A stretch of 64,000 nt of DNA from Leucobacter komagatae (GTDB taxonomy: Bacteria > Actinomycetota > Actinomycetes > Actinomycetales > Microbacteriaceae): the NCBI RefSeq assembly GCF_000834055.1, contig NZ_JXSQ01000011.1, positions 1 to 64,000 of the forward strand, written 5' to 3'. This document shows, piece after piece, positions 48,332 through 57,092 of this stretch. The notes beneath the pieces are model-generated. The model worked only from the letters and a program-made list of their open reading frames with translations, was not told where the DNA came from and made no database searches. The number at the start of each line of letters is the position of its first letter. Position 1 is the first letter of the stretch. A program made the translations under genes and the position numbers.

Positions 48332-49894
48332 ATGACAGAAACTCCCGCAGCAGCGGCACCGAGTACCCGTCGCCGGGTGCTCGTGCCGCTGCTGCTGCTT
48401 GGTGTGGCGCTCACGGTGCTCGTGAGCGATCAGGTCGTCAAGAACTGGGTCGTCGCCAACCTCCCGGAGGGCGAGACGGTTCCCGTCCTTGGCAACTTCC
48501 TCCAGTGGCACTTCGTGCGCAATCCCGGCGCCGCGTTCTCGATCGCGAGCGGCCAGACCTGGATCTTCACGATCCTCTCCGTGATCGTCGTCGGGGTGAT
48601 CGTCTGGCAGATTCGCAGGCTTCGCTCGGTGCCGTGGGCACTGTTCCTCGGGCTCTTGCTCGGCGGCGTGCTCGGTAACCTCACGGACAGGCTCACCCGT
48701 GAGCCTGGGTTCCCTGAGGGCCACGTCGTCGACTACATCTTCACCCCGTGGATGATGCCAGCGATCTACAACATCGCAGACATCGGCATCGTGAGCGGCA
48801 TGATCCTCTTCGTGCTCATCACGATCTTCGGCTTCTCCATCGAGGGTGGCAGGGAAAAGCGCGTGCGCGACGCACCCGATGCAGCGTCTGCGACTCCCGA
48901 AGAAGACGCAACACCCGAGTCACCCGAACAGCCAACCGCGGGCGAGACCCCCGCCACCCCCGAAGAAAGGCTGATGGTGGAACACCGTAGCCTCCCCGTA
49001 CCCGAGGGGTTGGCCGGTGAGCGTGCAGACGCTGCCCTCGCCAAGCTGCTCGGCCTTTCTCGTAGCTACGCGCAGGAAGTGATCGCTGCCGGCGGCGTCG
49101 CGCTCGACGGTGAGCTTGTCTCGAAGTCGGAGCGGCTCACGCCAGGCGCACTGCTCGAGGTGAGCTGGGAAGAAAAGGCGGAACCAACCGTCGTTCCCGT
49201 GCACCTCCCAGAGCTTGGCATCGTCTACGACGATGACGACTTCGTGGTCATCGATAAGCCGGCAGGTGTCGCAGCACACCCCTCGCTCGGCTGGACGGGG
49301 CCAACGGTGCTCGGCGCGCTCGCCGGCGCTGGCTACCGCATCGCGACCTCGGGCCCCCCGGAGCGGCAGGGGATCGTCCACCGCCTTGACGCAGGAACCA
49401 GCGGCCTCATGGTCGTCGCGAAGAGCGAGCGCGCATACAGCCTCCTCAAACGCGCGTTCCGCGACCGCGAGGTGAAGAAGATCTACCACGCTGTCGTGCA
49501 GGGGCATCCCGACCCGTTCTCGGGAACGATCGAGGGTTCGATCGGGCGCCACCCGGGGCACGAGTGGAAGTTCGCCGTGACGAGCGACGGCAAGCCGTCG
49601 ATTACACACTACGAGACGCTCGAAGCGTTCCCGTTCGCAACACTGCTCGAAGTGGAGCTTGAGACCGGGCGTACGCACCAGATCCGCGTCCACATGTCGG
49701 CGCAACGCCATCCGTGCGTTGGCGACACCATGTACGGTGCCGACCCGACGCTGTCGGATCGATTGGGGCTGACACGCCAATGGCTCCACGCGATGCGACT
49801 CGGATTTCGGCACCCTGGTTCGGGGGACCCTGTCGAGTTCGAGTCCGTGTATCCCGCGGATTTGCAGCACGCAATCGACGTGCTCGACTCCTAG
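48332..49894 (+). CDS. lspA: LspA-RluD fusion: signal peptidase II plus pseudouridine synthase
   Basis: One 520-residue frame with two enzymes. Residues about 1-175 form LspA, the membrane aspartyl protease that trims prolipoproteins: four helices, [25 protein letters not shown] and YNIADIG with both catalytic Asp. An acidic Pro/Thr/Glu linker (about 176-212) leads to an S4 domain and an RluD-type synthase with [13 protein letters not shown] (catalytic Asp) and [12 protein letters not shown]. No stop separates them. An internal ATG at 48974 with AAGAAAGG upstream would give a normal 306-residue RluD. LspA's C-terminus is cytoplasmic, so a fused RluD would reach ribosomes. Start is ATG 48332 or GTG 48329. 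Confidence 0.85.
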
Positions 49895-55759: not shown

Positions 55760-56371
55760 TCACGACGCTGACGCGAGTTTCGGCGTGAAGCCGTCGGCTG
55801 CCAGCCCGCTCCCGTCGTCGCTCCGGTCGTCGCCATTGCTTGCCGCGGGCGCCGCTGCGGCGCCGGGGCCAGCAGTCACCTGCGAGGGGGCCTGGGCGGG
55901 AGCGGTAGGCAAGCTGCCCGTGTCGGCCGTGTCGGCCGTGTCGGCCGCGTCGCCCGTGTCAGACGTGTCGCGCGAGCCGTTCGCCTCCGCTTTCTGGGTG
56001 GCGCCTGGCTCGACGCCGATCGTCTTCGTGAAGTAGGAGACGCCGAAGCGCATGTCGTGGCCGATCCCGTCGGCATCAATCTCAACCGACGTGCCCCGTT
56101 TCTCCTCGGTCTCCCACTGCCGCACGCGCAGCCTGCCAGCGACGACGACGCGGTCACCCTTGCGCAGCGACCGCTGCGCGTGCCTCGCGAGGCTGCGGAA
56201 GGTATTCACGGTAAACCAGTTCGGGTCTGCGTCGACCCATTCCTGCTTCTCGGCGTCGAAGCGCCGTTCGCCGCTCGCGAGTCTGAACGTGCAGAACTCG
56301 GCTCCTCCGGCCGGGGTGAAGAGCTTCGGGTCGGTCGCGACCTGGCCAATCGTGCTGAAGTGGTGTGACAT
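55760..56371 (-). CDS. ssb: Single-stranded DNA-binding protein paralogue
   Basis: A 203-residue protein with an OB fold (about 1-115: FCTFRLASGERRFDAEK, WFTVNTFRSLARHAQRSLRKGDRVVV, GRLRVRQWE). A low-complexity tail contains six D-T-A-like triplets. The acidic end typical of replicative SSB (DDIPF) is absent; it ends KLASAS. It is away from rpsF/rpsR, so this is probably a second SSB, perhaps for recombination or repair. Convergent with the Pr6Pr gene. Confidence 0.85.
   Translation of the reverse strand: MSHHFSTIGQVATDPKLFTPAGGAEFCTFRLASGERRFDAEKQEWVDADPNWFTVNTFRSLARHAQRSLRKGDRVVVAGRLRVRQWETEEKRGTSVEIDADGIGHDMRFGVSYFTKTIGVEPGATQKAEANGSRDTSDTGDAADTADTADTGSLPTAPAQAPSQVTAGPGAAAAPAASNGDDRSDDGSGLAADGFTPKLASAS
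55920..55973. repeat. 9-bp tandem repeat inside ssb
   Basis: Six 9-base units: three perfect copies of GTGTCGGCC followed by three degenerate ones. They encode Asp-Thr-Ala-type triplets in the tail of the SSB protein. Copy number may vary between strains without shifting the frame. Confidence 0.8.
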
Positions 56372-56609
56372 CTCTGCTCCTGTTCGCTTGGGGCCGCTTC
56401 GAGGCGGCGCCGCCGTCGCCGGGACCTGGGGATCCGCTGCGTGTGCTCAAGCTTGCGTCACGTCCCGCCTGGCGCCGGGCAACGACCGCGCAGTGTGGAC
56501 AAGATGGGGGCCGTCGCCTACGGCAGCGGCGTTGTGGAGAACATGCGCGCCAGCTGTGCCTCTGAGCTTCGGGTGCGCCAGGCAGCAGCCTGCCCATAGA
56601 CTTGGGGTC

Positions 56610-57092
56610 ATGGTTGTGAATCGAGCCCGCCGCGCAGGAGTAGCTGTAGCCGGATCCGTGCTTCTCGTTCTCGGGCTCGCCTCGTGCTCATTACTCGAGG
56701 GCCCAACACCCGCGACCCCTGACCGCCCACAGATCGAAACTCCCGCAGAACCCGCGGTCTTCGTCCCTGGCGGTTCAGCGCAGGAAAACCTGCCGTTCTT
56801 CCAAGAGCTCCTCCTCGGCTACGCCGCCGGCGAGCAGCCCATCCAGGGCCAGCCCATCGTTGAGGCGGTCGCGGCTGGCGGGTTCGACAAGGCCGACATG
56901 CAAGTGTCGTTTGACCAGTCGAAGACGAACCTCGAAGCCGATAGCATCTTCGTCGCCGTCCGCTCGGGGGAGACCTGCCTCATCGGGCAACTCATCCCCG
57001 AGACACGCGAGGTCGCAGCTCAGGCCGTCGACGCCGTCGGCCCAGAGCGCAACGTCTGCCTGATCGGGCAGACGCGCCCGATCGACTGGTAG
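56610..57092 (+). CDS. Lipoprotein, DUF6993-like
   Basis: A 160-residue exported protein. The signal peptide (NRARRAGVAVAGSVLLVLG) ends in the lipobox LASC, so Cys near residue 27 should be lipidated and cleaved by LspA. A Pro/Thr-rich spacer and a soluble domain of about 100 residues with two Cys (GETCLIGQ; NVCLIGQT) follow. The long frame upstream to 56052 is antisense to ssb; ATG 56610 follows TTGGGG. Family assignment is tentative. Confidence 0.8.
   Translation: MVVNRARRAGVAVAGSVLLVLGLASCSLLEGPTPATPDRPQIETPAEPAVFVPGGSAQENLPFFQELLLGYAAGEQPIQGQPIVEAVAAGGFDKADMQVSFDQSKTNLEADSIFVAVRSGETCLIGQLIPETREVAAQAVDAVGPERNVCLIGQTRPIDW

Follow-up and report, generated by a model that had tools for sequence, protein, structure and literature searches.

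An apparent lspA-rluD fusion in a draft genome of Leucobacter komagatae is most likely explained by one missing base

Does Leucobacter komagatae encode signal peptidase II (LspA) and an RluD-type pseudouridine synthase as one protein, or is their common reading frame the product of a single missing base? The question is raised by the window, as we call the whole 64,000-nucleotide stretch of DNA analyzed here, which sits on contig C11 (102,473 bases) of a 62-contig Leucobacter draft assembly with a size of 3.67 Mb and a completeness score of 99.97%. Positions 48332-49894 (+) form one open frame of 520 residues, with a TAG stop ending at 49894 and GTG 48329 as an alternative start, in which a complete LspA is followed by an acidic linker and a complete synthase. 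The first-pass annotation of this DNA had described a frame running continuously through the acidic linker, and this observation is correct: the joined frame is present in the sequence as given. Its parts are the following:

48332..48847, plus strand: LspA (signal peptidase II) part, residues 1-172 (Pfam PF01252, NCBIfam TIGR00077)
48848..48973, plus strand: acidic, proline-rich, variable C-terminal tail of lspA (the 'linker'), from alignment with the lspA tails of relatives
48977..49894, plus strand: predicted RluD-type pseudouridine synthase with its own TAG stop (PF01479, PF00849, TIGR00005)

Peptidase_A8 (PF01252) was detected at residues 25-166 (E 5.4e-33, above the Pfam cut-off) and is covered end to end (profile positions 1-142 of 142), and the NCBIfam lspA model TIGR00077 scored 85.8 bits against a cut-off of 73.95. 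In the second half of the protein, S4 (PF01479, residues 231-273) and PseudoU_synth_2 (PF00849, residues 303-457) both exceeded their Pfam cut-offs. The NCBIfam rluA_subfam model TIGR00005 reached 280 bits (cut-off 192.7), and the RluD equivalog NF008385 remained below its cut-off (204.8 bits vs 351). The synthase part appears from its sequence to be RluD-type, and the exact RluD target sites (1911/1915/1917) are unproven for it. The aspartates of the conserved NxxD and NxAD motifs of LspA and the HRLD motif of RluA/RluD enzymes have catalytic roles. These motifs are found here as GNLTDR at residue 115 and YNIADIG at 146 in the LspA part and as HRLDAGTSG at 350 in the synthase part, so that both active sites are complete, as had been proposed.

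The similarity extends to known structures. Residues 23-162 match the signal peptidase II structures PDB 5dir and 9emz, and residues 25-166 match 6ryo (best E 7.9e-16; PDB 6fms was a further signal peptidase II structure compared), while residues 221/222-518 match PDB 1v9f, 1qyu and 7bl5, which we take to be E. coli RluD, with E about 3e-50 and with the S4 and catalytic domains shared. Unlike known LspA, the protein as read from the given sequence continues into RluD, and unlike known RluD, it has an LspA part ahead. Searching the same genome with the 520-residue query revealed one LspA, the rluD of this locus and one further RluA-family gene. Several Leucobacter relatives possess a further LspA homologue, which has diverged to about 32-44% identity (e.g., G008:C16:41690-42178 and G049:C1:2657733-2658191) and for which no match was found in the L. 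komagatae genome.

A key question is how lspA and rluD are arranged in related genomes. The junction was readable in 51 of the 53 other Leucobacter genomes (G042 and G043, with weak or partial matches, were left out), and none of the 51 junctions is fused, in agreement with the earlier statement that these genes are neighbors but normally separate. The two genes overlap in different frames at 49 junctions: by 14 nt in 36 genomes, in which the lspA TAG ends 14 nt inside rluD (ATG/GTG GAA CAC CGT AGC and variants), and by 1 nt in 13 genomes; a short gap is present in the other two. The 14-nt and 1-nt types represent different relative frames of lspA and rluD. For G034, one of the 13 genomes with the 1-nt type, the start and the overlap length are uncertain because the aligned codon is ACT.

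DNA alignments located the difference between the window and these genomes. The three nearest relatives (G038, G030 and G018) read AGGG ahead of the rluD start where the window reads AGG, and G003 and G004 are likewise one base longer than the window at this place. The single frame across lspA and rluD exists because one base is missing in the lspA tail, a region whose length and sequence vary among relatives. The first-pass annotation had itself set a frameshift between 48840 and 48974 against its reading, and the comparison points to exactly this interval, with one G fewer at 48969-48970. The letters around the claimed internal start are GAAGAAAGGCTGATGGTGGAACACCGTAGC, and the features of the junction are listed below:

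48964..48970, plus strand: AGAAAGG, candidate ribosome-binding site of rluD (from the sequence)
48969..48970, plus strand: GG, compared with GGG in the nearest relatives (G038, G030, G018), the one-base difference that joins the frames (DNA alignment)
48974..48976, plus strand: ATG, the in-frame start named in the first-pass annotation, directly before the codon to which the rluD start of relatives aligns
48977..48979, plus strand: GTG, in alignment at the position of the rluD start in other Leucobacter genomes (43 ATG, 7 GTG and 1 ACT in 51)
48988..48990, plus strand: TAG, the lspA stop in 36 of 51 Leucobacter genomes, here outside the lspA frame (sequence and alignment)

An intact internal start at 48974 with a ribosome site had been placed exactly where a free RluD would begin. 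The ATG is indeed in frame and is preceded by AGAAAGG, which presumably pairs with the 3' end of 16S; the codon aligned across the genus, in turn, is the next one, GTG 48977, and not the ATG. The window still contains the old boundary codons of both genes, TAG 48988-48990 as the lspA stop and GTG 48977 as the rluD start.

LspA has four transmembrane helices and a cytoplasmic C-terminus. In an evolved, selected bifunctional enzyme, LspA would tether RluD to the membrane and link rRNA modification to membrane-bound ribosomes, and the anatomy alone, with two complete domains and a linker, might suggest such a protein. We consider it very improbable: the fusion is absent from the readable Leucobacter relatives, and the former stop of lspA and start of rluD persist without change, so that no adaptation can be seen. 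Membrane tethering of RluD had been raised as a possibility for this locus; no support was found for it as an evolved or conserved feature. A switch at the G run, by programmed frameshifting or phase variation, that toggles separate and fused products across the genus is the least probable of the explanations considered; a G run does lie at the junction in the nearest relatives, but it is composed of just two or three G and is lost in more distant Leucobacter, where the sequence before rluD varies.

Is the fusion present beyond the genus? The 520-residue protein was searched in 818 genomes, including that of the window, in overlapping sets of 54, 398 (family) and 394 (class) genomes, with no match at all in 2 of the family and 8 of the class genomes. 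Among the matches listed, the only stop-free match spanning both domains was the window's own, with none in the 817 other genomes; the search for the same fusion in relatives that had been advised for this locus therefore yielded no second case, either here or at the 51 junctions. A diverged linker could make a true fusion show up as a pair of separate matches; for this reason, 19 stretches with long rluD frames, a hand-picked part of those listed, were also examined: none is fused, and an LspA match was present in 15 and absent in 4 of them. In the survey behind the Leucobacter junctions, 6 of the 120 loci had no LspA match; both domains were present at 114 loci (a number that includes duplicates and the locus of the window), of which only the window's own is fused. 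No LspA-pseudouridine synthase fusion was named in the titles or abstract openings of the literature searched, which was mostly without subscription papers.

The arrangement as separate genes is not restricted to this group. In the accessible text of PMC2228790, Sp0928-Sp0929 of Streptococcus pneumoniae are lspA and rluD-type genes in an operon of overlapping frames, and in that of PMC12888878, lspA/rluD of Staphylococcus aureus is an apparent two-gene operon. As far as these texts go, the pair and its order are common to the window, Leucobacter, other Actinomycetes, S. pneumoniae and S. aureus, and the two genes are closely spaced or overlap slightly; they are separate elsewhere, whereas in the window a one-base shift puts the lspA stop out of frame.

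The question then becomes whether the missing base was lost in the cell or in the course of sequencing and assembly. A frame transition seen in one genome only resembles the 'singletons' of PMC3711429, for which the part of that paper available to us gives sequencing error, recent indel, adjacent genes or recoding as causes; unlike that work, which applied ab initio prediction to complete genomes, one draft genome is read here by comparison. A real, recent, strain-specific deletion would let ribosomes run from lspA into rluD and would yield an LspA-linker-RluD protein with RluD on the cytoplasmic side; some free RluD would still come from the ribosome site and the GTG/ATG starts, which are retained. 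Both domains are intact, and the indel lies in a variable tail; a real deletion would be nearly neutral because it changes no more of lspA than its stop and the few codons ahead of it. Joining the frames would also need little, since lspA and rluD stand in one frame, with 1-2 in-frame stops between them, in at least 17 family genomes and at least 12 class genomes. Nevertheless, no fused gene occurs at the 51 readable Leucobacter junctions, and no stop-free full-span match was listed for the 817 other genomes.

To compare the assembly with its relatives, contig C11 and the first 200 kb of C2 were aligned with the syntenic parts of G003, G004 and G018, and those were also compared with one another; a supported event was defined as a frame change inside a gene seen against at least two references. 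Initial ORF-based surveys were swamped by antisense and off-frame ORFs and missed the break in a trpB homologue, and DNA alignments with the four-genome comparison were used instead. Contig C1 (200 kb) was left out of the survey; relatives are mostly 74-79% identical over the piece mapped. Four supported events were found in 153,133 nt of the L. komagatae assembly versus three in 608,579 nt for the three relatives (G004 two, G003 none and G018 one; binomial p=0.034), and all four were seen against all three references: a trpB homologue (C11:69682), trpE (C11:89662), uvrB (C2:41966) and nadA (C2:186696). The nadA event, which adjoins a G run, is weak because the frame stays open and the variable N-terminal part alone changes, and p is 0.10 once it is dropped. 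The lspA/rluD difference is not among the four, since the test is blind to gene ends, where this difference is located.

The other three events interrupt genes. uvrB (C2:40189-42284) is read in two frames (residues 1-599, then 595-699) with the break beside a C run, and the loss of the last 100 residues of UvrB in a free-living actinobacterium seems unlikely. trpE (C11:89040-90646, outside the window) is also in two frames, broken around residues 200-214 in a variable stretch with no clear run. The second trpB homologue (C11:69085-70289, minus strand, outside the window), approximately 54% identical to the trpB homologue near 92.5 kb, is broken by a change of GGG to GG. On contig C6, outside the counted comparison, 3 candidates were found in 48 genes aligned with G004 and none in 35 genes aligned with G003; one of them splits a 3-isopropylmalate dehydrogenase-like gene (C6:163274-164399), with six C versus five in G004 (one reference), and the other two lie near 160.0 kb and 50 kb. 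Parts of G030 gave 1 event in 16 genes (vs G004) or 20 genes (vs G003). Candidate broken genes on C11 at 56052-57092, 71866-73530 and 94126-94965 were dropped as antisense, off-frame or unexplained, and those at about 9.8-11.7 kb and at about 38-39 kb were dropped because they were supported by G003 alone and G018 alone, respectively.

This apparent surplus of supported events in the same assembly favors an error as the cause of the fusion. In a draft whose other one-base frame breaks mostly adjoin runs of G or C, an indel error would probably have made the joined frame, and the locus differs by one base at a G run from its three nearest relatives, 36 of the 51 Leucobacter genomes sharing the same 14-nt overlap and TAG. 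The numbers are small, however; single-reference events are no commoner here (3 in 153 kb vs 19 in 609 kb), no further supported frame break was found inside the 64-kb window, GGG is a short run, and the completeness of the genome is high. A location as neutral as the lspA 3' end favors a real indel, since the accessible text of PMC3711429 deems indels near the 3' end of a gene likelier to be real than those elsewhere in the gene. By a rough estimate, the chance of an error making this fusion is ~0.002 (~26 supported events per Mb, a tail of ~126 nt and one of two indel directions), and real fusions (0 in 817 among the matches listed) have a frequency below about 0.004 as a rough bound; these figures are not decisive by themselves. 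With the unexpected frame breaks in uvrB and trpE also standing against it, we regard a real deletion as a serious but unlikely alternative, and its fuller form, in which a one-base deletion confined to this strain leads to both a membrane-bound fusion and, through the internal start, a free RluD, as somewhat more doubtful still. The missing G is most likely a sequencing or assembly error, a choice over real mutation that we infer from comparison of the sequences.

If the base was lost in this manner, lspA and rluD would be two separate overlapping genes, as elsewhere in Leucobacter, and the overlap suggests that they are probably translationally coupled. The loss of one G from GGG near the 3' end of lspA would shift lspA away from the frame of its TAG (48988-48990) and into that of rluD, giving the apparent 520-residue protein. 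In the living cell, a free LspA would end shortly past the linker, at the TAG inside rluD, and a free RluD would start at GTG 48977, aided by AGAAAGG at 48964-48970.

On the most likely reading, then, the fusion is not a real feature, and it calls for caution with similar cases: when a gene pair overlaps by a few bases, one base lost in a draft creates a tidy 'fusion' with intact domains and an internal start, and comparison of the junction DNA with that of relatives exposes such apparent fusions at once. If the deletion is real, the strain would offer a small natural experiment on RluD working while tied to the membrane. Among the near relatives, G030 has an rluD divided between two frames, with the break around query residues 391-410, which makes it a second draft in which this gene is broken.
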